58,295 bases of DNA from a virus: the IMG/VR virus record IMGVR_UViG_3300049489_000494, positions 1 through 58,295 of that record; one strand, given 5' to 3'. Below are positions 3,368 to 58,175 of this stretch, piece by piece. The first letter of the stretch is position 1. Each line of letters starts with the position of its first letter. The position numbers and the translations under genes are program-made. Under the pieces are notes generated by a model. It saw only the letters and a list, made by a program, of their open reading frames with translations, was not told the origin of the DNA and did no database searches.

Positions 3368-3424
3368 ATGGTCAGTGTGAGAGACAGTGTATATGACAGT
3401 GTGTATGACAGTGTGAGTGAGTAA
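3368..3424 (+). CDS. D-S-V-x repeat peptide, array 3 (short)
   Basis: The frame encodes 18 residues: M, four units (VSVR, DSVY, DSVY, DSVS) and E. It sits two bases after the stop of the upstream gene and lacks the MSSRM leader and TED tail. It may be a contracted relic of a longer array or a functional minimal version. A GCGGGG just upstream is a weak ribosome-binding site. Confidence 0.45.
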   Translation: MVSVRDSVYDSVYDSVSE

Positions 3425-3466: not shown

Positions 3467-4438
3467 ATGAGCAGTAGTAGTAATACTAAGAAGAATAAGA
3501 AGCAAATAATAGATAAGTTGACACCGGAACAGGAAGCGATGATGCCTATCTATGTAGAGCGATGCACTGCAATCGGCAGAACTACTCAGACATGGGATCA
3601 ATTCACTGCACCTGATAATCAGGCTGCAATTCGCTCACTCATCACAGAGATCTATACCAATGGCGGAGTAACAATGCCTACCGATATCAGGCTAGTCCGT
3701 AACCCACAGGAGGGTATTGATCTAGTCTCATCACTCACAGGTAATACTAAGTATAGTACACTCAATCAGTCATGTTATGGGTCGCATGACATCTCATGGC
3801 TCTCATTCTATATGTTCTGCCACTACGAACTTAACCTACGGGAGGAGACTGCTCGCCTCAAGCCGTTCTGGGAATTAGCCACGAAGTGTGGATGGTGGTG
3901 GCCTCTCTCTGGGGCAGTAGTCATATCACCTATGCCTAGTGCACTGAGACTAGATAAGCAGGGTAGGTTACATGCCGAGGGTGAAGCCGCAGTTGACTAC
4001 TCCAGTCAGCCGTTCGTCTATGCATTACATGGAGTTAGATTTCCAGTGGAGATGGCAATTAAGTGGGTGGTACCTCCAGTCAGTGAACTACCAATAGATC
4101 AGGTACTCAGTATCACTAACACAGAGCAGCGTAGGGAGATAATTAAGAGGATCGGGATACAGAATATGTGGAAGCAACTCAATCCTAGAATGCTAGATAC
4201 AGCGACAATAGCAGGTAATAGCTACCAATTACATGAGATATCATTGACAGGTAATGCATCTAATGATAGAATGAATAGAATATATCTACAGATGCTGAAT
4301 CCCTCAGTCATCGGAGAGATACACATCGAGGGAGTACATCCCGATTGTAGGACTGTGGAACAAGCACTCAACTGGCGCAACTTCGGTACTGTGGATGTAT
4401 CTACTGGTAGATTCGTACCACCACAGGTATTGACATGA
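3467..4438 (+). CDS. DUF6745-like protein
   Basis: The 323-residue product resembles DUF6745 proteins of bacteria and phages, which have unknown function. Supporting features are WLSFYMFCHYEL, the tryptophan-rich CGWWWPLSGAVVIS block, the RLDKQGRLHAEGEAAVDY segment and the following YALHGVRFPVEMAI. A GGAG at 3455-3458 supports ATG 3467; the frame is open back to 3446 but without a better site. The stop overlaps the ATG of D-S-V array 4 by four bases. Confidence 0.8.
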   Translation: MSSSSNTKKNKKQIIDKLTPEQEAMMPIYVERCTAIGRTTQTWDQFTAPDNQAAIRSLITEIYTNGGVTMPTDIRLVRNPQEGIDLVSSLTGNTKYSTLNQSCYGSHDISWLSFYMFCHYELNLREETARLKPFWELATKCGWWWPLSGAVVISPMPSALRLDKQGRLHAEGEAAVDYSSQPFVYALHGVRFPVEMAIKWVVPPVSELPIDQVLSITNTEQRREIIKRIGIQNMWKQLNPRMLDTATIAGNSYQLHEISLTGNASNDRMNRIYLQMLNPSVIGEIHIEGVHPDCRTVEQALNWRNFGTVDVSTGRFVPPQVLT

Positions 4439-4716
4439 GTAGTAGTAGAATGGGCAGTGTATATGACAGTGTGTATGACAGTGTGTGGGACAGTGTGTAT
4501 GACAGTGTGAGTGACAGTGTGTGGGACAGTGTGAGTGACAGTGTGTGGGACAGTGTGTATGACATTGTGAGGGACATTGTGAGGGACAGTGTGAGGGGCA
4601 GTGTGAGGGGCAGTGTGTGGGACAGTGTGAGGGACAGTGTGAGGGACAGTGTGAGTGGCAGTGTGAGGGGCATTGTGTATGTCAGTGTGTATGTCAGTGT
4701 GTGTGGGGCAGTGTGA
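4435..4716 (+). CDS. D-S-V-x tandem-repeat protein, array 4, 3' frameshifted
   Basis: This is the longest array: leader MSSSRM and 21 four-residue units, ending abruptly as CGAV. The end is out of frame with the repeat because of an extra GT in the run GTGTGTGTG near 4697-4705. Removing two bases there restores the reading WGSVRDSVSTDG and a stop at 4740-4742, close to the NTED ends of arrays 1 and 2. I therefore read it as an intact array truncated by a 2-bp slippage. The start overlaps the upstream TGA. Confidence 0.7.
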   Translation: MSSSRMGSVYDSVYDSVWDSVYDSVSDSVWDSVSDSVWDSVYDIVRDIVRDSVRGSVRGSVWDSVRDSVRDSVSGSVRGIVYVSVYVSVCGAV

Positions 4717-5433: not shown

Positions 5434-5520
5434 ATGAGTATGAGTATGAGTAATAGGATGATCAGTGTGAGTGGCAGTGTGAGTGACAGTGTGTGGGACA
5501 GTGTGAGTGGTAGTGTATGA
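5434..5520 (+). CDS. D-S-V-x repeat peptide, array 5
   Basis: The 28-residue product has a leader (MSMSMSNRM) resembling an expanded MSSRM, then ISVS, GSVS, DSVW, DSVS and a final GSV. The leader itself contains a GAGTAT tandem repeat. AGGAG at 5429-5433 lies close to the first ATG; the repeated ATGs at 5440 and 5446 have more usual spacing. The stop overlaps the start of the next gene. Confidence 0.55.
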   Translation: MSMSMSNRMISVSGSVSDSVWDSVSGSV

Positions 5521-6282: not shown

Positions 6283-6781
6283 TATCAGTGTACAAGTACT
6301 ACTATGTGGGATTGCACTCATGAATCTACATGGAGCTAGGATGCATGATGATCAGTGGGATTCGTTGATAGCACTAGCATCTCATTCCGATAATACCGAT
6401 GTAGCAATAATCGGGTGGATGGAATCTCGCTACCATTATAATATCAGGAGTAGTGCGGGGGCGATAGGGGTGATGCAGGTAATGCCGAGAACTGCACGTG
6501 GTATTGCAATTGAGTGTGGTGTATCTGATATACATTACAGCAGTCCTCTGCCAACTGTCGCAAGACAGTTGACTAATCCAGATATAAATGTTAGAATAGG
6601 TATATGCTATTGGGAGATGATGCTGCAACTGACTGGTGATAGAATAAGTAAGGCGCTAATAGCATACAATGCAGGATTAACTAGACGTAATAATAATGTG
6701 GCACTACTGCCACGTGAGACAATTAACTACGTTACACAATTCCATGTGTACAGAGAGGAGCTAGGACAATGTCGAGACTGA
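6272..6781 (+). CDS. Exported lytic transglycosylase (SLT domain)
   Basis: The 169-residue product cleaves the peptidoglycan glycan strand, judged by a goose-type/SLT fold. The pattern is IIGWMESRYHYNIRSSAGA with likely catalytic Glu51, then IGVMQVMPRTARGIA, a mid-domain NINVRIG-like segment (NPDINVRIGICYWEM) and the C-terminal ALIAYNAG near residue 135. An N-terminal hydrophobic stretch (residues 5-20) looks like a signal peptide or anchor. It overlaps the exported ClpP-like gene by 13 bp, so the two are likely co-translated and act together at the envelope, perhaps in lysis. No obvious holin sits beside it. Confidence 0.88.
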   Translation: MLGSISVQVLLCGIALMNLHGARMHDDQWDSLIALASHSDNTDVAIIGWMESRYHYNIRSSAGAIGVMQVMPRTARGIAIECGVSDIHYSSPLPTVARQLTNPDINVRIGICYWEMMLQLTGDRISKALIAYNAGLTRRNNNVALLPRETINYVTQFHVYREELGQCRD

Positions 6782-7527
6782 GGATTACTACTTATATTAT
6801 CATCACATGGCTACTATTCAATGTGATACATGCTATTACAGCTAGAGCATCCAGCTACAATGCAGTACCTGAGCGTACATTATATATCACAGGTTCCATA
6901 GGAGGACTCTCAATTCTCAAGCAAGCACAGCAACTCCTGAACATGAGTGACTCATCACATGATCCTATCTATCTAGTTATCAACTCACCTGGTGGTGAGG
7001 TAATTACAGGCACACAATTCGTCAGTGCTATGCGTGTGGCGAAGGCACGTGGAGTAGTCCTCAAGTGCCTAGTACCAATGGCTGCAGCATCAATGGCATT
7101 CATTATCTATAACGAGTGCAGCGAGAGATATGCTCTCTCACAGTCGCTATTCCTATGGCATTCCATACGCAGTATGTTATTAGGTGTCTACACTCCAGCT
7201 GAATTAGGAATCATACAGGCAGATATGCTTAGATTCCAATCCAATTTCGACTCACTCATGCAGAGTGAATTAGATATCTCAGCTGAGGAATTCTATTATC
7301 ACTACCACAATAACTCATTACTACCAGCACTATATCTACACTCCATATCACCCTATTACATGACACTAGTAGATGATATAACTGGAGTACTCAATGTGTA
7401 TGATGTAGTGGGTACTGGTGGGGATAAGAGGGAGCAGGGTGAGGTAGGTGAATCTGGTATCAATAATAATCTAATCTGGTTCGGAGAGTGGAACACTAGG
7501 GAGAATACTAATGTCAGAGGACACTAA
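6769..7527 (+). CDS. Exported ClpP-like serine protease
   Basis: The 252-residue product has an N-terminal hydrophobic segment (residues 8-22) and then a ClpP/crotonase-fold protease core. It shows YLVINSPGGEVITG near residues 68-81, the nucleophile Ser108 in MAAASMAF and a likely catalytic His131 in LFLWHS. Its size and signal separate it from cytosolic ClpP and suggest activity in the periplasm or at the inner membrane, like SppA-type peptidases. The C-terminal 40 residues are low-complexity. Its neighbour is the transglycosylase, hinting at envelope remodelling, lysis timing or protection against other phages. A second, unrelated-context ClpP-like protein lies at 55470-56039. Confidence 0.82.
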   Translation: MSRLRITTYIIITWLLFNVIHAITARASSYNAVPERTLYITGSIGGLSILKQAQQLLNMSDSSHDPIYLVINSPGGEVITGTQFVSAMRVAKARGVVLKCLVPMAAASMAFIIYNECSERYALSQSLFLWHSIRSMLLGVYTPAELGIIQADMLRFQSNFDSLMQSELDISAEEFYYHYHNNSLLPALYLHSISPYYMTLVDDITGVLNVYDVVGTGGDKREQGEVGESGINNNLIWFGEWNTRENTNVRGH

Positions 7528-18463: not shown

Positions 18464-18694
18464 ATGCCTATGTACGTATGGCATTGTGACCAGTGCAGTA
18501 AATTAACTGAGATATTCAATTCAATACATGAATCTGATAGTAAACCAGAGAGGTGTAGTAATGATGATTGCCCTAGTAATTCTAGTACTATTAGTAGTAC
18601 TACTAGTGAGTCTACCGGAGTAGTTAGTGCTATCCAGATTAAGTGGACTAAGCAGCTACAACCACAGATTAACAGATGGAGGTATTGTGACTGA
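18464..18694 (+). CDS. FmdB-like zinc-ribbon protein
   Basis: The 76-residue product starts MPMYVWHCDQCSKLTEIF and has a second pair further on (CSNDDC), the layout of FmdB-type zinc ribbons, which usually start MPxYxYxCxxC. The C-terminus is Ser/Thr-rich. GAGGTGAG at 18451-18458 decides ATG 18464. Confidence 0.75.
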   Translation: MPMYVWHCDQCSKLTEIFNSIHESDSKPERCSNDDCPSNSSTISSTTSESTGVVSAIQIKWTKQLQPQINRWRYCD

Positions 18695-38445: not shown

Positions 38446-40317
38446 TTAAATACTAACCTTCGTTATTCTAAACAAAGTACTTTGATTCACAGTTGCCTGT
38501 GGTGTTGTATCTGTATGAGCTCTAATTATATCACCAGATATCGCTTCAAAAGTAACCGATATCGCCCCCTCATCTGTAGATACTGATCTAACAAGTCCTA
38601 GCCTATGTGAATTTGTAATAGAGAGAATAGTTGTAGTAAGTTGATTAGAATTCTTCGAGATACCGAAAGTAGAACCAGCTGCAGTATTTCTATCAACATA
38701 GGTTACTGAGTATATTCCATCCTCATTAATTGTGAATGATCCACCATTAGTTGCGCTATCAGCATAGGTAATAGCTGTCCCTACACTTCTAACAGTTGTT
38801 GTAAATCTTCGTATATTTGTATTAGTAGATCCATGGCCATTACCAGCCGTAACCCAAACTTCACTTATAGTCTTATATTTCTCGAACCATTCAATTACAC
38901 GCCATCCCTCTGCAGAATTATAATATACAAGAGTAATGGTAGCACCGTTTACCTTCATAGTTAGATCTGTTGCAGATCCCATAATATTCAGACCATTACG
39001 AGCTACTATGATATTATTAGTAGCATGTGTATCCTCTGGATCTACTATTCGTATTGTATCTCCAATTACAGCAGATGCAGGTAGTGTGATAGTGAATGCT
39101 CCACCAGATGAATCTGCGAATAGATTATCACCAGCTACTGCAGTATAATTAGCTGTCTTAGTTACCCACGTGAATACTGGGGCAGATTGAGATACGAAGG
39201 AGAGATTACCACTACCATCAGTTCTCATCAATTGACCACTAGTTCCATCGGCTACTGGTAATGTGAATTCTACTGAGGTAGCTCCAGCTGGTCCCTTCAG
39301 TCCTGTGAATCCAGTATCACCTGAATTGTTGAACTTGAGAGGATTACCAGATCTAACCTGAGGTCCTCCACTTGAGGTAGATAGTAGTGCGTCTTGATAT
39401 GTCTTACTAGTCAATGTCTGACTAGCATCTGTAGTTACTATTGTAGATGAGTTAGGCAGTGAGTTACCAGAGATAACAACACCTGATGCATCCCTACGTA
39501 TCACCTTATCTGCATCACCTAGTACTGTCTTCAATGTCGATAATGCAAGATCTTGCACTGTGTTATTATCACCATCTATAGTCTTACCTGTGAGTGTCTG
39601 ACTGGCATCCGTTGTAACTATTGTAGATGAGTTAGGTAGGGAGTTACCTGATATTACAATCCCAGAAGCATCCCTACGTATCACCTTGTCAGCATCTGCA
39701 AGTTGAGTCTTCAACGAAGTGAGAGCTAGGTCCTGTACTATATTGTCATCCCCATCAATAGTCTTATTGCTGAGAGTCTGAGTTCCATCGGTTGTGACTA
39801 GATTACCAGCACCTACAGTACCTGCAGTTCCTAACTTCTGGAATTCACCATTATCAACACTGCCATTTGCTATCTTAGTAGCGTCTATTGCAGCTCCAGA
39901 TTTGATATCGGCATCTTCTATATTAGTTACTGTATTCTGGTCAGCATCGATCGTCTTATTAGTCAATGTCTGACTATCAGTTGTACCAACAACATCGCCC
40001 CCAGGCACTGCCTTGGAGGATGATATCACAACACCAGATCCATTCCTATTCAGGAACTTATTGGCATCAGTTACATTGGTTTTCAGACTCGATAACGCAA
40101 TATCCTGCAATGTATTATCGTCGCCATCTATCGTTTTCCCTGTGAGTGTCTGACTGGAGGAGGCAGATGTCAACACCTGATCTGAATCACCTGGAGGTAG
40201 TTGGAAGTCACGTGCAGCTGTATATGTAGTAGACTGACTAGGACGGAGAGTTATCTCCTGATTATTCTTGCGGAATATTGTAGCTACTAGTTCTCTGATA
40301 CTACCGAATATCTTCAT
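38446..40317 (-). CDS. Tail fibre with TLTxKTIDGD repeats and C1q-like end
   Basis: The 623-residue product has a short N-terminal virion-binding segment, then five repeats of about 60 residues beginning QTL[T/S]xKT at residues 56, 116, 180, 240 and 300. A beta domain with AGDNLFADSSGGAFTITLPA follows, and the C-terminal 140 residues (SFTINEDGIYSVTYVDRNTA) resemble a C1q/TNF-like trimer. This is a receptor-binding fibre layout. Poly-A/T runs are commoner here than elsewhere in the genome, a possible sign that the fibre tip was acquired recently. Confidence 0.82.
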   Translation of the reverse strand: MKIFGSIRELVATIFRKNNQEITLRPSQSTTYTAARDFQLPPGDSDQVLTSASSSQTLTGKTIDGDDNTLQDIALSSLKTNVTDANKFLNRNGSGVVISSSKAVPGGDVVGTTDSQTLTNKTIDADQNTVTNIEDADIKSGAAIDATKIANGSVDNGEFQKLGTAGTVGAGNLVTTDGTQTLSNKTIDGDDNIVQDLALTSLKTQLADADKVIRRDASGIVISGNSLPNSSTIVTTDASQTLTGKTIDGDNNTVQDLALSTLKTVLGDADKVIRRDASGVVISGNSLPNSSTIVTTDASQTLTSKTYQDALLSTSSGGPQVRSGNPLKFNNSGDTGFTGLKGPAGATSVEFTLPVADGTSGQLMRTDGSGNLSFVSQSAPVFTWVTKTANYTAVAGDNLFADSSGGAFTITLPASAVIGDTIRIVDPEDTHATNNIIVARNGLNIMGSATDLTMKVNGATITLVYYNSAEGWRVIEWFEKYKTISEVWVTAGNGHGSTNTNIRRFTTTVRSVGTAITYADSATNGGSFTINEDGIYSVTYVDRNTAAGSTFGISKNSNQLTTTILSITNSHRLGLVRSVSTDEGAISVTFEAISGDIIRAHTDTTPQATVNQSTLFRITKVSI

Positions 40318-45196: not shown

Positions 45197-45225
45197 ATTA
45201 TATCACATTTATAGTCTAGTGTCAA
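45197..45225 (-). promoter_or_regulatory. Perfect consensus sigma70 promoter for scaffold-capsid
   Basis: On the minus strand TTGACA (45220-45225) and TATAAT (45197-45202) are both full matches, with a 17-nt spacer. The predicted start is near 45190, giving a leader of about 115 nt to the scaffold ATG. It lies in the portal-scaffold gap and would boost the proteins needed in most copies. Host RNA polymerase would read it without phage factors. Confidence 0.85.
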
Positions 45226-47711: not shown

Positions 47712-47867
47712 TTACTGCCTCCAGTTATTAGTGAATTTAATATTGAGTAGATTGCGACGAATCTCTGCCATCTCATTCCTGAGTCTCATATTACGCCACA
47801 TTATTAGTACGTTAATAGGTAACATTATATGTAGTGAGAATATTAGTGCAATAATTAACGATTCCAT
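47712..47867 (-). CDS. Small membrane protein overlapping terminase end
   Basis: The 51-residue product starts MESLIIALIFSLHIMLPINV, one transmembrane helix, then a basic amphipathic part (RNMRLRNEMAEIRRNLL). GGAG precedes ATG 47867, and the gene overlaps the terminase end by 13 bp. A holin- or spanin-like role is conceivable. Confidence 0.55.
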   Translation of the reverse strand: MESLIIALIFSLHIMLPINVLIMWRNMRLRNEMAEIRRNLLNIKFTNNWRQ

Positions 47868-50311
47868 CTAGATCTAACTCCTCTACCTATTCTACTATTC
47901 CCATTTCTAATACTCTGATTGCGCTGCTTCCTACGCTCATTCTCTAGGTATAACCACTCATGCCATGCTACAGGCTTGAGATTAGGATCTGCCTTCGGTA
48001 TTAGATCAGCGAAGTATTGAGCCGTATCTAGGAGATGGTAGCTCGATGCATTAACAATACGTGATTCTCCATTAGGAGCCCATCTACAACTACGGAATTC
48101 TCCGATTAGATTAGTACACTTCGGTGATATCAATAATCTAACTCCTAATGAACTACGTAAGCCCATTATTAGTTCAGCCTTTCTACTATTCTTATCATAG
48201 GGAGACATATATGGAGGGGTGATTCCAGCTGCAGCAGCTCTACCTAGATACCATGCCTCATGTGGATCACATATTCTCCTGATTATATTAACATGTCGAG
48301 TGCGCTCACGCATCTCCTCTACAATTCGAACAGGATCTAGTATATCCTCTATATACTCAGCAACTATACAATACCATATAGATGTAGCAGGATCCTCTGC
48401 CCAGAGTGTATATCCGAACTTAGACTTCAGTGCAGGATCTACTGATTCTACATGTCTCCATTGTGGGGAGTAGTTAATAGGCTCACGTACATGGATAGCA
48501 GGATCGAGCTCATATACAGAATCCTCACCAACAGACCATGCTCCATAGAGGATAGTATTGCGATACTCCTCTGTATATCCATTCAACTTATCTAGTTCCT
48601 CTTGTATACGAGCTGCATACAGTGGGTTATCCAATTTACTGAGTGAATACTTCCGGCCAGTAGGTTCACTAGCACTATCTACAATCTTCCTAATCTCATC
48701 ATTCCTGAACTTAGGAGTGAAGGTGGCTAGGAAGTAGCCATTACGTGCAGCAACTCGCTGTTGGAGCTCCTCTAATACATATATACTAGAAGGCATCTCA
48801 TCTAACCACACATAGTGAGCAACATAACCCTGCATGTGCTTCCTATGTTTCTCCGAACTATCATTATGTGATAGGAATACAATTGTATCTCCAGTATCAA
48901 TATTCTCTACTGACTGCAGAGATCCACCAACACGCCTCTCCTTCCATTTACTAGTATCTAGGAATTGTGCCAGCTTCTTCCCCCAGAGTTCTATGTCCAT
49001 CATCTTCCGGTCCTGACCTGCTACTATTATTAGTAGTGGTTCAGTTCCCCACTCAGCTGGACGTACCCATGTTGGATGTGTATTAGTTAGAATCCATGTG
49101 ATCTCACGAGCAGCTAGACCCGACTTACCTGAGTTATGAGTTACTAATCCATTTGCTAGACAGTATAGATTAGTTGAGGACTCAACATGTATATCATATG
49201 TATTCACTAACTCAGTAGATCCATTGTGCTTAGCTCCAATCCAATCAGGATTAGTTCTAGTAGCTACTAGATCTGAATATTCTGGCTTCCATTTCTTACT
49301 AGGAGTTACTAGATATGGATCTAACTCATGTAATATACGCTTAGAATATGCATTATTAGCACATCTAATTGAATATGTAGGGCCATTTACGAACTTATCC
49401 CTATCATTAGTATATATAGTTAATTGTGTCTGCCATAGAGCTAGAAATGCATATTGTAGTACTTCCAATACTGTCCTAGCTTGCATCTCAGTCGATATAC
49501 ATAATGTATTCCAACTATCCATGTAGATAGATCCATCAGTATCTATAATACCAGCTACGAATGCTAGTAATGTATCTCTATCCCATCCTCTAACTACATT
49601 GATATCTACCCATTTCTCATGAGCATATCTATCTCGGCACCATTCATTGTAGTACTTAACCTCAGCTCTGCCTATATGCCATGTATAATTCTCACCACCA
49701 CACTTAACTGCAGTAGTTCCACATATATTAGACAACTTATTAGGTATATTAGAATCAGCTGATGATATATAGATCTGCTTACCACCAGCCATACTACATC
49801 CATCACCTAGTAGTGCAGCTATTGCATAGGCCATATCAGGTTCATGTATACTACCAAGTGGAGTATTAAGTTCAACTCGACGAATCTGACTATCTCTATG
49901 GAATTTATCCACAGTTCTCTCACCATCCCTAGTTAGAAATGTATGGTTAGTTGTACACTTAGCTTGAATCATTCCTCTATTAGTTAGAGTTACTACTTCA
50001 CGGGGTCCATTATTGAATACCTGCAATACTCTGATAGGAGAACCATGTTCATTATATACTAGATCATCTATCCTGAGCTCCTCAATTGGTATTGGACCAT
50101 GAGGAGTTGCTACTAGGGTGCCCTCAGCTAGACATTGATTTCCTGCTACTACCCACCTGAATTTGATGAGTCCTATATCGTCTAGTATTGTCTGCTGAGC
50201 TGCTGTAGGTCTGGACGTAACATCAGACGGATCGAAGCATTCTGCTAATTGCAGTTGCCGCATTCTATTAACTGCGGATGCTACTAATTGTTGTTGTCTG
50301 ATGTCGGCCAT
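47855..50311 (-). CDS. Terminase large subunit interrupted by an in-frame intein
   Basis: The precursor is 818 residues; excision of a 334-residue intein leaves a 484-residue terminase. The extein junction is in the ATP-binding P-loop: VVAGNQ before and SGKSGLAARE after, giving GNQSGKS. Walker B is YVWLDE. The nuclease domain has ESVDPALKSKFG and RRICDPHEAWYLG. It packages DNA through the portal. ATG 50311 (MADIRQQQLV) is preferred for AGGA upstream; the frame extends to a TTG at 50365 next to the upstream stop. It lies 6 kb from the small subunit. Confidence 0.9.
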   Translation of the reverse strand: MADIRQQQLVASAVNRMRQLQLAECFDPSDVTSRPTAAQQTILDDIGLIKFRWVVAGNQCLAEGTLVATPHGPIPIEELRIDDLVYNEHGSPIRVLQVFNNGPREVVTLTNRGMIQAKCTTNHTFLTRDGERTVDKFHRDSQIRRVELNTPLGSIHEPDMAYAIAALLGDGCSMAGGKQIYISSADSNIPNKLSNICGTTAVKCGGENYTWHIGRAEVKYYNEWCRDRYAHEKWVDINVVRGWDRDTLLAFVAGIIDTDGSIYMDSWNTLCISTEMQARTVLEVLQYAFLALWQTQLTIYTNDRDKFVNGPTYSIRCANNAYSKRILHELDPYLVTPSKKWKPEYSDLVATRTNPDWIGAKHNGSTELVNTYDIHVESSTNLYCLANGLVTHNSGKSGLAAREITWILTNTHPTWVRPAEWGTEPLLIIVAGQDRKMMDIELWGKKLAQFLDTSKWKERRVGGSLQSVENIDTGDTIVFLSHNDSSEKHRKHMQGYVAHYVWLDEMPSSIYVLEELQQRVAARNGYFLATFTPKFRNDEIRKIVDSASEPTGRKYSLSKLDNPLYAARIQEELDKLNGYTEEYRNTILYGAWSVGEDSVYELDPAIHVREPINYSPQWRHVESVDPALKSKFGYTLWAEDPATSIWYCIVAEYIEDILDPVRIVEEMRERTRHVNIIRRICDPHEAWYLGRAAAAGITPPYMSPYDKNSRKAELIMGLRSSLGVRLLISPKCTNLIGEFRSCRWAPNGESRIVNASSYHLLDTAQYFADLIPKADPNLKPVAWHEWLYLENERRKQRNQSIRNGNSRIGRGVRSRWNR
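49133..50134 (-). mobile_element. LAGLIDADG-containing intein in the terminase P-loop
   Basis: The 334-residue element starts with Cys (CLAEGTLVATPHG), has a block B with TTNHTFLT, two LAGLIDADG helices (AYAIAALLGDG and LLAFVAGIIDTDG) and ends NTYDIHVESS ... LANGLVTHN, followed by Ser as the +1 residue. These are all parts of a bifunctional splicing-homing intein. The second half of each helix keeps an acidic residue, so the endonuclease looks intact. Insertion in the P-loop, an invariant site, is typical and prevents loss. Confidence 0.93.
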
Positions 50312-50366
50312 TGATATTCCTGTGAGCATTACAGTATTAATATACCGTGTGTTGTCTACTGACAAC

Positions 50367-54835: not shown

Positions 54836-55483
54836 TTAACTAGTCGCCTCTATCAATCGCACATCTATAGATGTACTACCAACTGCATAGATCTCCTGAC
54901 CTGCCTCTATATCTATACCGATACACTCACCACCGCCCATCGGATAACCGATTGTAGTGGTAGCCTCTGCTAGCTTGAATCCGATGTATAGTATGGAATT
55001 AGGTGTATTATTCTTGATGACGATACCTGCCCTATCTACCAGTGCAGCTGGAATCAGTAGTGCGGGTGTAGTTGTAACTGGTGCTGGAGATGCTCTAAGT
55101 TCAGTTGCACCCAGGATACGGGCACTAGTTGTACCTGATCCCATTCCACGACCCACTACTTGTAGATTACATGATCCTGTATATTCTATAACTAATATAG
55201 AATTAGACATGGTATCTGCCGACTTCTTGAGTAGGAGATCGGTAGTAGGTGCAGTTATCTGTGGGAATCTGATGATCTCAACATCCTCACCAGGAGATGT
55301 ATACGTCAGTACATATACATCTAATGTTCCACTAGTTAGCGTACGTACGTATAATGAGACTAGTAATGAATCTGAATCTAGAACAAAGGAGACACGACGA
55401 GATCCAGAGCCTACTAATTCTCCATTGAATAGAGAATGAGACTCTGATCTACCTATACGGTAGCTATGGTTAGATGATGACAT
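54836..55483 (-). CDS. Beta-rich virion protein
   Basis: The 215-residue product has two beta regions: an N-terminal sandwich (RRVSFVLDSDSLLVSLYVRT) and a C-terminal domain (AGIVIKNNTPNSILYIGFKL ... IEAGQEIYAVG) of the same general layout as the capping domains at 52425 and 53208. It overlaps the ClpP-like gene by 14 bp. Confidence 0.67.
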   Translation of the reverse strand: MSSSNHSYRIGRSESHSLFNGELVGSGSRRVSFVLDSDSLLVSLYVRTLTSGTLDVYVLTYTSPGEDVEIIRFPQITAPTTDLLLKKSADTMSNSILVIEYTGSCNLQVVGRGMGSGTTSARILGATELRASPAPVTTTPALLIPAALVDRAGIVIKNNTPNSILYIGFKLAEATTTIGYPMGGGECIGIDIEAGQEIYAVGSTSIDVRLIEATS

Positions 55484-56039
55484 CTAATAATCCCTCAGAT
55501 AGGGCCTGATCTGCAGTCATTATATAATCACTGGTGCATCGCCTGCGCCAGTATTGAGCATTCTTACTACTATCCATCACACTACTACGTAGAGCATAGA
55601 TGTCATACATCTGCTTCCGTATAATGCGGGAATGATCAGCCCATCGTTCGAATGATATCGCCCCCGTCTCACTCGAATTAGTACCATCATGTATCATTAT
55701 TGTTGAGTGGCGTGTGGCCTCCCGTACATCTCCTGCCTGGAGAATAATGGAGGCCATCGACATTGCCTGTCCAACTACTCTGATACTTACCTCATGTGGT
55801 AGTGCACTGATGACATCGTATATCGCTATACCATGTTCCCAATCACCACCCTCAGAGTTGAGGTATATTACAATGGGCTGATCGCCCGACTTCCTTAGTA
55901 TATCTATGTTAGTGAGTGTCCTAGAGGTTAACTCCAGATCAATCTCACCGAATATGTTGATACTACGTGCTTCAACTGAGAGTCCCCATTCATGATATCG
56001 ATCAATCGAATCACCCCTTGTTGCCCTCCCCATCGCCAT
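55470..56039 (-). CDS. ClpP-like prohead-type protease
   Basis: The 189-residue product is a ClpP-fold serine protease of normal length. It has IVIYLNSEGGDWEHG near residues 56-70, Ser94 in VGQAMSMASIIL and His117 in STIMIHDG. No signal peptide is present, so it is cytosolic and probably processes virion proteins. It lies between the small terminase and appendage genes instead of next to scaffold and capsid, where such proteases are usually found. It overlaps the small terminase gene by 29 bp. Confidence 0.85.
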   Translation of the reverse strand: MAMGRATRGDSIDRYHEWGLSVEARSINIFGEIDLELTSRTLTNIDILRKSGDQPIVIYLNSEGGDWEHGIAIYDVISALPHEVSIRVVGQAMSMASIILQAGDVREATRHSTIMIHDGTNSSETGAISFERWADHSRIIRKQMYDIYALRSSVMDSSKNAQYWRRRCTSDYIMTADQALSEGLLDVII

Positions 56040-56547
56040 CCGTATTATCTCCGTCTGCTAACTGTCGTTGATTCTGATTACCAGTATTGATTGTAACACC
56101 CTGTCTATCTAACCACTGCTGGAGCTCGTGTGGACCCATTCTATTGATCCTCTCATCTAGCAACTTCTCCTTAGCATACTTCCGTGGCATCTTATCAGTT
56201 GCCTCTAGGAGTAGCTTCGCTGCATTCACCCTAGCACTTGCATTAGCATCTGGATCTACCAGTAATTGTTCTAGGGTATCTAGAGCTATATGTGCTAGAT
56301 ACTCGGTCCTCTGTCTGAATTCATCCCTATTAGTGAACCATTCCCTGAATCCAGGTTGTGACCACCACTTCGACACCCGACCGTCATTAGTTATCTGCAT
56401 CACTGCAGCTAGTGTGATTGAATTACTGTCAGTAGTGGGATTATCACCCCATACTGCCCAGTATGCTGCCTTAACCTGTCTCTGTGTCGGAGTAGGTACA
56501 TATACCATATCCTCCACCAATGCTGCTATATTACTCAGATTACTCAT
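56011..56547 (-). CDS. Terminase small subunit-like protein
   Basis: The 178-residue product has PTPTQRQVKAAYWAVWGDNP and a helix-turn-helix-like TLAAVMQITNDGRVSKWWSQ, followed by PGFREWFTNRDEF and a helical region ending with LLLEATDKMPRKY, then an Asp/Gly-rich tail. This resembles small terminases that recognise the packaging site. The GC-rich palindromes at 57274-57678 are candidate targets. Confidence 0.75.
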   Translation of the reverse strand: MSNLSNIAALVEDMVYVPTPTQRQVKAAYWAVWGDNPTTDSNSITLAAVMQITNDGRVSKWWSQPGFREWFTNRDEFRQRTEYLAHIALDTLEQLLVDPDANASARVNAAKLLLEATDKMPRKYAKEKLLDERINRMGPHELQQWLDRQGVTINTGNQNQRQLADGDNTDGDGEGNKG

Positions 56548-56565
56548 CTATATATACTCATATCA

Positions 56566-56946
56566 CTAGTGCTTCAGCTTGGGTATATCGAATCCATTGA
56601 GTCGGAGCATGGTCTCAATCTCAGCCTCAACCTCCTGCTCTAATTCGAATTCGATTGGATCATTGGCATCCCCAACTACAGCTACATGGAGGAATCGGTC
56701 CTCCGGTATATTGACCGCTAGAGTGGCTAATCCCCTCCTGGATACGTCCAGATCTCGGATATAGCCCTGAGCCTCCAACCATGTTAGATACTCTCTGAGT
56801 CGTCCTAATGGGACTCTGAGATGTCTAGAGAATGGTCCTAGCTGTATATCTACAGTATCTCCCATCCACTCCATGAACTGGAAGCGGCCCCACATTATTA
56901 GAATGAGACACTTGAATGGATTTAGTCTATGTTTTCGAGTGCCCAT
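56566..56946 (-). CDS. Winged-helix-like protein, first leftward gene
   Basis: The 126-residue product contains LGPFSRHLRVPLGRLREYLT followed by WLEAQGYIRDL, a helix-turn-helix and wing layout, and an acidic C-terminal helix (EFELEQEVEAEIETMLRL). It is the promoter-proximal gene of the virion operon, 30 bp downstream of the leftward promoter, and may regulate this region or take part in packaging. Confidence 0.65.
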   Translation of the reverse strand: MGTRKHRLNPFKCLILIMWGRFQFMEWMGDTVDIQLGPFSRHLRVPLGRLREYLTWLEAQGYIRDLDVSRRGLATLAVNIPEDRFLHVAVVGDANDPIEFELEQEVEAEIETMLRLNGFDIPKLKH

Positions 56947-56975
56947 GTTATCCTAATACTAGTTGCCATGTAATT

Positions 56976-57004
56976 ATTGTATCATAGTTAGACAGTGAAG
57001 TCAA
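56976..57004 (-). promoter_or_regulatory. Leftward sigma70 promoter of the virion operon
   Basis: On the minus strand TTGACT (56999-57004) and TACAAT (56976-56981) are each five of six matches, with a 17-nt spacer. It is about 30 bp ahead of the first leftward gene at 56946 and reads away from the promoter at 57108. Confidence 0.75.
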
Positions 57005-57057
57005 GTGTTAATTATTATTAATAGTAGTAGTGTAGTAGTGATATTACTGGTCGAACT

Positions 57058-57109
57058 AACTACTAGATAGATAACAATCGATAATTACTAGTCTATCTAG
57101 ATAGTAGTT
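57058..57109. promoter_or_regulatory. Inverted repeat overlapping the rightward -35, operator-like
   Basis: AACTACTA-GATAGA (57058-57071) mirrors TCTATC-taga-TAGTAGTT (57092-57109), an 8+6 bp interrupted inverted repeat. Its right arm ends within the TTGACA of the rightward promoter, so a bound repressor would block it. The repressor is not identified. Confidence 0.55.
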
Positions 57110-57135
57110 GACAATTCTGTGGTATGTGGTATAAT
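57108..57135 (+). promoter_or_regulatory. Perfect -35/-10 sigma70 promoter, rightward
   Basis: TTGACA (57108-57113) and TATAAT (57130-57135) both fully match consensus, with a 16-nt spacer. It points towards the early genes, but the next well-supported gene starts at 58029, giving a leader of nearly 900 nt that contains several palindromes. Confidence 0.8.
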
Positions 57136-57273
57136 TAGAACATAGAGAGACTCATAGGAGTAATCATTGATGACATAGAAATCATAGATAATCACCTCTA
57201 TGCCCCTATGCCCTACTGGCGGGGTTAATTATATGATACATAGATTCATAGTATAGTTATACACTACATAGTA

Positions 57274-57289
57274 GTATCACTAGTGATAC
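57274..57289. repeat. Perfect 16-bp palindrome
   Basis: GTATCACTAGTGATAC equals its own reverse complement. It is flanked by ACTACATAG (57263-57271), whose reverse complement recurs at 57305-57313, and by TAGATTCA/TGAATCTA arms, so it lies at the centre of a larger symmetric structure. Confidence 0.85.
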
Positions 57290-57304
57290 ATTGAATCTAA
57301 GTAT

Positions 57305-57322
57305 CTATGTAGTACTACATAG
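57305..57322. repeat. Perfect 18-bp palindrome
   Basis: CTATGTAGTACTACATAG is fully self-complementary and shares its half-site ACTACATAG with 57263-57271. Three copies of one half-site within 60 bp suggest a binding site for a dimeric protein. Confidence 0.85.
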
Positions 57323-57664
57323 CAGTACCTATTGAATAGGGGCTCACTAGGTACACTACCTCATCTCTCGACATCCTACCTATCTCTACTCCTATTCCTA
57401 CTTATATATGCATTCTACCTATTAATTGAGTACTGGTTGTCAATAATGTACCTATTCGTGGGGGCGATATTACTCGGTCTCTATAGGGGCTCTATCTATC
57501 GAATATCATTATATATAGGAGCTAGTTACCAGTCCGACTCATAGCACCTCCCCGAGAATGTGAGGGGGTAACTTGCGATCTAGTCGAACATCAACCCACT
57601 TCCCGATTGGTCGATTGGCCAGTCAATTCATATATTCGATCCTACCACCCATTCATGATGCAAT

Positions 57665-57678
57665 ACCGCACGTGCGGT
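57665..57678. repeat. GC-rich 14-bp palindrome
   Basis: ACCGCACGTGCGGT is perfectly self-complementary and stands out in an otherwise A/T-rich non-coding stretch. It could be a protein-binding or cleavage site, for example for packaging. Confidence 0.75.
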
Positions 57679-58028
57679 GACTAGTGTGTTGTGTTAGTAG
57701 TGGGGAGAAGTACGTCACCCCCCAATATCCTACGGTATACACGATGCAGTGACGCCTCTCCCTATTCATTATATACTATCCAACAATTGCCCAATTATAT
57801 GACGCATGTCTATATAGAGGGATATTCTATTAATATTCCAGTGATATCATATACATACGCACAATTAACTCATATAATTGACTAATCCATCGTCAATTCA
57901 CCCCTCAATGATTCCGCATAGTTAGCTAATCACCCCTAGAATTCATCAATGATATCACGGCTGGCATTAGTCCTGCAATATCTAGTTACGTCAGGCGATG
58001 AGTTAACCAGATAGAATGAGGTGAACTA

Positions 58029-58175
58029 ATGAGAATCGATTACTACATAGACAGCACAGGGTTCTATTGGGCTTGTATTCATAACGGTGATAGTACATAT
58101 AAGCATATCTATCTAGGTATGACTAATCGTGAGCAAACGCGAATTGATATGATACATAGATTGGGGGTGATATGA
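58029..58175 (+). CDS. Small hypothetical protein, first rightward gene
   Basis: The 48-residue product (MRIDYYIDSTGFYWACIHNG...DMIHRLGVI) follows AGGTGA at 58019-58024. Its stop overlaps the start of the GP88-like gene, which continues at position 4 after circular closure. It heads the early operon. Confidence 0.65.
   Translation: MRIDYYIDSTGFYWACIHNGDSTYKHIYLGMTNREQTRIDMIHRLGVI

Follow-up and report, generated by a model that had tools for sequence, protein, structure and literature searches.

A candidate DNA-processing site: a conserved bipartite element in the divergent control region of a family of uncultivated tailed phages

What does a tailed phage keep in a kilobase of gene-free DNA between its two divergent transcription units? 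We addressed this question in the virus record IMGVR_UViG_3300049489_000494, whose whole stretch of 58,295 nucleotides is referred to here as the window. The window is a circularised phage contig in which the first 127 bases equal the last 127, 127 being an assembler word length; without this terminal duplicate the phage genome measures 58,168 bp. Rightward genes run from ~58,029 through 0 to 22 kb and include GP88, DUF932, a family A DNA polymerase, a helicase and a Cas4-like nuclease. Leftward genes run from 56,946 to 22 kb and encode a winged-helix protein, a terminase small subunit (TerS)-like protein, a ClpP-type head protease, the large terminase subunit (TerL) with an intein, the portal, a probable head protein and tail genes. 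The large terminase gene (47855-50365) is split by this intein, which has a LAGLIDADG-like part. Two Clp-type serine proteases are encoded, one in the early region beside an SLT transglycosylase (6769-7527) and one in the head-gene operon (55470-56039), and a 180-bp tandem repeat (39401-39800, 2.2 copies) lies within the gene at 38446-40317.

The window is a member of an uncultivated tailed-phage family. Its portal had no match among 50,697 deposited phage records, and a single phage, represented by two records, was all that the C-terminal part of its terminase matched, at 24% identity. Relatives were gathered with a portal alignment, which returned about 100 from IMG/VR; alignments of the TerS-like and winged-helix proteins offered no conserved blocks for scanning. 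The closest proteins among these relatives share 57-62% identity, and for the gap no DNA-level relative was found among them, nor any DNA similarity to GenBank phages. Four family contigs (L233, L234, L235 and L236) had been binned in metagenome-assembled genomes (MAGs) of Nanoarchaeia, Saprospiraceae, Oligoflexales and Thiomargarita, organisms so different that the bin labels are no guide to the host. Two further candidates (L237 and L238) were rejected as unrelated chance matches of one permissive pattern.

A preliminary description of the sequence had placed a gene-free region between two operons and proposed it as a replication origin, packaging site or structured RNA. The region does exist: it spans 1082 bp (56947-58028), contains no supported gene and is bordered or occupied by the following features.

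56011-56547, minus strand: tentative TerS-like protein, 178 aa (weak match to PHROG 2538, terminase small subunit, E 0.0067; helical low-confidence model)
56566-56946, minus strand: winged-helix DNA-binding protein, 126 aa, first gene of the leftward operon (AlphaFold pLDDT 83; helix-turn-helix plus wing; best PDB folds of MarR/ArsR type, weak E 0.02-0.06)
56976-57004, minus strand: predicted sigma70 promoter of the structural operon, TTGACT-17-TACAAT with extended -10 TG, 10/12 consensus
57108-57135, plus strand: sigma70 promoter TTGACA-16-TATAAT with extended -10 TG, 12/12 consensus, predicted start ~57142
57142-58028, plus strand: untranslated leader of ~887 nt predicted for the early (rightward) operon, based on the promoter and the lack of a supported gene

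The first early gene begins at 58029, so that ~887 nt of the gap lie 3′ of the rightward promoter. Sites with a 12/12 match are rare: the window genome has only two, and 27 of 30 simulated genomes had none. The second, TTGACA-17-TATAAT at 45225, points leftward just downstream of the portal gene and probably serves the head genes. The leftward promoter of the gap points into the winged-helix/TerS-like operon. Counterparts of the rightward promoter were found in eight relatives (L105, L124, L125, L132, L133, L134, L242 and L244), all of which carry the divergent pair with 10-12 of 12 consensus positions on both sides. Gene-free gaps in relatives measure ~0.9-1.4 kb where both flanking genes are present. 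No T-run terminator was found in the scanned stretch, and scans made of the window genome identified no phage RNA polymerase gene. The best explanation of the gap is a predicted control region, kept across the family, that separates the phage's two transcription units.

In base content the gap is more A+T-rich (38.4% GC vs 41.2%). Genome-wide, AAA/TTT is avoided ~12-fold (observed/expected 0.08; AAAA 0.02), and this holds for coding as well as non-coding DNA and for either strand; the 1082-bp gap contains one AAA and no TTT, with about 30 of each expected. This avoidance is common to a subset of relatives (L082 0.07, L105 0.18, L083 0.20, L140 0.28 and L085 0.30; family median 0.94). CTAG is over-represented 2.4-fold in the window genome, while CGCG (0.03), CCGG (0.23) and GCGC (0.26) are strongly under-represented.

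The most conspicuous sequences in the gap are palindromes. With the perfect promoter upstream of them, they fall within the predicted 887-nt leader.

57230-57311, no strand assigned: imperfect inverted repeat (hairpin), 82 nt, spanning the 16-bp palindrome plus a single arm of the 18-bp one
57274-57289, no strand assigned: 16-bp perfect palindrome GTATCACTAGTGATAC, not conserved in relatives
57305-57322, no strand assigned: 18-bp perfect palindrome CTATGTAGTACTACATAG, no exact match in IMG/VR
57665-57678, no strand assigned: 14-bp palindrome ACCGCACGTGCGGT, 60 bp to the right of the conserved element described below, not conserved

All three palindromes are located where the preliminary description had reported them, as are a tandem CTATGCCC (57198 and 57206) and three ACTACATAG half-sites (57263, 57305 in inverted form, and 57314) within 60 bp. 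Chance simulations bore out the description's cluster as far as the close 18+16 pair is concerned, but not the single palindromes or the 14-mer. In random sequence of leader length and composition, the probability of any palindrome of at least 16 bp was 0.03-0.08 and that of at least 18 bp 0.01-0.03, while an 18+16 pair within 60 bp had a P of about 0.0005 or less. Across 58-kb genomes simulated with order-3 composition, two palindromes of at least 16 bp fell within 60 bp of each other somewhere in 1% of runs. The close pair is therefore unusual, whereas single palindromes are not. Palindromes of at least 10 bp are not in excess in the leader (5 vs 2.7 expected, P 0.165), and about ten perfect ones of at least 14 bp occur elsewhere in the window genome, making the 14-mer unremarkable.

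At the RNA level, the segment 57190-57360 folds with a z-score of -3.4. By folding z-score the hairpin ranks 11th of 2114 segments across the genome; several higher-ranking ones are 12-bp coding repeats. The whole leader folds little better than its shuffles (z -1.5). A 12-bp repeat, GACAGTGTGWGG, forms five arrays in the early region (1703-1918, 2179-2312, 3373-3417, 4435-4716 and 5463-5516). The 4435-4716 array encodes in-frame tetrapeptide repeats (DSVR/DSVW/DSVY) in a small ORF starting MSSSRMGSV, and the others look alike.

The preliminary description had made its case for the palindromes depend on their conservation in relatives, whose leaders lack them. Comparison with 12 and then 29 leaders recovered none of the window palindromes, and an exact search of IMG/VR for the 18-bp palindrome gave no match. 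Palindrome counts in the 29 leaders are mostly at chance, and exceptions such as L128 and L187 carry unrelated motifs. The palindromes are thus lineage-specific, and the hairpin, at about +90 to +170 of the predicted early transcript, is best read as a putative operator or RNA-processing signal peculiar to this lineage. A more specific proposal makes them operators for a dimeric regulator, perhaps the adjacent winged-helix protein, that would control the early promoter. The paired dyads 130-180 bp 3′ of the early promoter start, the three half-sites and the adjoining winged-helix gene fit this proposal. We nevertheless regard it as unlikely: the palindromes are not conserved although the recognition segment of the winged-helix protein is, the motifs are absent upstream of other window genes save for a shared 10-bp core at 18594, and no conserved dyads were found near the promoter in relatives.

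A different sequence in the leader is conserved. All-against-all comparison of like-oriented leaders first exposed a bipartite element, which in the window lies between the palindromes.

57551-57605, plus strand: conserved bipartite element, AATGTGAGGGGGTAACTTGC-N16-AACCCACTTCCCG, located with a profile that left the window out
57557-57576, plus strand: block 1 of the element, AATGTGAGGGGGTAACTTGC
57593-57605, plus strand: block 2 of the element, AACCCACTTCCCG

The family consensus reads AGTGTGnnGGGGGAAATTCC ... CCCCACTTnCC and includes an inverted AGTG...CACT dyad. In the shared block of ~55 nt, AGTGTG is followed by a G-rich segment and then by AAATTCC; after a spacer of 18-25 free bases comes CCCCACTT. 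A profile built from 17 relatives with the window excluded gave a single significant match in the 58-kb window genome, at 57551-57605 on the plus strand (15.9 bits, E 7.6e-4; next-best match 3.2 bits). None of 40 simulated genomes reached this score (best 11.3 bits), and within 1.74 Mb of collected loci every profile match with E<0.5 fell within leaders of the window's family. Twenty-three leaders carry the element, all with one orientation; its two weakest matches, in L124 and G015, rest on E values of 0.03-0.1. Three contigs from GTDB MAGs that had been excluded from the model all carry it in the expected place and strand (E 7e-7, 8e-5 and 2.5e-4). Scanning IMG/VR with a DNA pattern yielded 21 contigs; wherever the element scored strongly and the flank was long enough, the TerS-like gene was present, and this group includes five viruses new to the set. 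In total, about 31 family members have the element in the same orientation and place. In eight leaders, hand arithmetic places it some 230-660 nt past the predicted early transcript start and some 300-640 nt short of the first early open reading frame. No element was detected in the 1.37-kb upstream stretch of the Thiomargarita MAG contig L236, which has a TerS-like gene, and several truncated leaders gave no match. The proposal of a cis-acting site in the gap is thus supported in outline by the conserved gap, its divergent layout and a strongly conserved element, but the palindromes are not that element. As the element-derived pattern recovers only family members and a few weak chance matches, it can serve as a family-specific sequence tag.

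The winged-helix gene adjoins the TerS-like gene in most relatives, yet it is missing in G001, G002 and G015, where the element is present. L214, L220, L222 and L228 have an extra gene of ~350 aa that separates the winged-helix gene from the element, and in these no strong sigma70 promoter was seen. The TerS-like gene, by contrast, occurs in every element-bearing relative whose flank was covered, and the element lies ~1 kb from it, weak as its assignment is, in all relatives with flank. The element is kept without the winged-helix gene and across an inserted gene, so its presence goes with the divergent gap and the TerS-like gene, not with the winged-helix gene or the promoters; and since it is present where no strong sigma70 promoter was found, it is not merely a promoter operator.

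We then considered whether the conserved sequence acts as DNA or as RNA. RNAalifold placed no consensus pairs on the element in 23 sequences, and an exhaustive helix scan found no covariation, only the invariant AGTG/CACT dyad. Applied to the conserved element, the structured RNA of the preliminary description thus found no covarying pairs to support it. Rfam gave only a sub-threshold chance match on the window (mir-359, 21.8 bits vs a gathering threshold of 68) and no match on the loci of eight relatives. A conserved sequence with inverted half-sites and without covarying pairs is likelier to be a protein-bound double-stranded DNA site than a structured RNA, as judged from these alignments. 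It is rather improbable that the leader is a regulatory RNA region whose palindromes, element or both function within the early transcript, signalling for instance antitermination, processing or stability; an RNA role of the element that needs no base-pairing is conceivable. The perfect promoter puts everything downstream, the element included, in the predicted transcript, the 82-nt hairpin sits at about +90, and the orientation of the element is fixed in every relative. These points are set against the missing consensus structure and Rfam matches, a hairpin that is not conserved, the weak folding of the leader as a whole and the retention of the element in lineages without a strong sigma70 promoter.

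Does the element lie at the physical ends of a linear genome? In lambda-like phages, the terminase-binding sites cosB/cosN occupy a non-coding stretch beside the small terminase gene, a setting that the gap and its tentative TerS-like neighbour resemble. Contig ends at first appear to agree: by hand tally, among 32 contigs extending as far as the winged-helix gene, 22 stop within ~1.6 kb beyond it, ~5x the stop rate between portal and winged-helix gene, and in G008 the element falls inside an exact 124-bp terminal repeat. However, one and the same virus stops at different places across assemblies (L180/L181, L216/L221 and L217/L222), contigs in many lineages continue across the site, and the near-complete contigs G001, G014, G015 and G016 break far from the leader. 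The overlap on which the window genome, G014 and G016 close is exactly 127 bp, an assembler word length. The comparison of same-virus assemblies together with the other near-complete contig ends speaks against fixed cos ends at the leader, and thereby against the packaging site of the preliminary description in its fixed-end form; cos ends or short terminal repeats at the element in general are very improbable. Strain variation or coverage loss would do as a cause of the contig-end clustering. Unlike in lambda-like phages, no fixed ends were found in the contigs of this family.

A packaging-initiation site of the pac type does not require such ends. We consider it quite possible, if short of an even chance, that the element is a pac-like site read by the TerS-like protein. 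The element would be recognised by a phage protein through two half-sites in inverted order, AGTGnGG ... CC(C)CACTT, with about four helical turns between them, and would mark the start of DNA processing. In the likeliest form, the TerS-like protein, encoded ~1 kb away, would initiate packaging at the element; packaging would be headful (pac-type) rather than fixed-end, and the 16/18-bp palindromes would stand apart from it in the leader, as a hairpin or operator specific to this lineage. The tracking of gap and TerS-like gene by the element is consistent with a pac-like site, as are near-complete contigs that close into circles with breakpoints elsewhere; circular assembly of the window would fit the permuted DNA of headful phages. 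Several observations weigh against it: the assignment as TerS is weak; conservation of the element exceeds that of the TerS-like protein (30-45% identity), an unusual pattern for co-evolving partners; and no element was detected in L236 and some truncated leaders.

Known pac sites offer a mixed comparison. The pac of SPP1 comprises several contacts flanking the first cut, that of P22 lies inside the TerS gene, and direct TerS binding is hard to show (PMC9611059). Given these precedents, location and conservation are the usual first evidence for a pac site, not proof. The window's candidate would resemble both as cis-acting DNA near or in the small terminase gene, provided that the weakly assigned TerS-like gene is one, and its two blocks are comparable to the multi-contact pac of SPP1 (PMC9611059). 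It differs from both in lying outside the TerS-like gene, ~1 kb off, in a divergent promoter gap, and its sequence is unlike the 22-bp P22 pac (PMC9611059).

The main rival of the pac-like site is a replication origin, which location and the sign change in GC skew suit about equally. Here, the conserved element would be the origin core: an initiator would bind the two half-sites, flanking A+T-rich hairpin-forming DNA would melt, and bidirectional replication would proceed with transcription. Phage origins can lie in divergent early/late control regions, as in lambdoid and T7-like layouts, with which the window gap shares strong host promoters, a long non-coding leader and a skew change. The gap is comparatively A+T-rich and conserved between the early and late units, and a family A polymerase, a helicase and nucleases are among the phage's own products. 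Cumulative GC skew, a check suggested by the preliminary description, does turn from minus to plus at the gap and back at ~22 kb, but gene direction switches at both of these points as well, so that the two are completely confounded. In contrast to lambdoid and T7-like origin regions, the gap has no iterons, nor tandem repeats beyond a marginal 9-bp one, and no initiator gene was recognised; only weak DnaA-like boxes are present. An origin at the element thus appears possible but doubtful.

There is also a slim chance that the element is a new kind of family-specific cis site, with two inverted half-sites about four turns apart in a transcribed early leader beside the TerS-like and winged-helix genes, where early transcription would compete with the start of packaging or replication for the same DNA. 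For a family whose portal is without deposited matches, the short, orientation-fixed and strongly conserved non-coding element would in any case provide a testable anchor for distinguishing a packaging site from a replication site.
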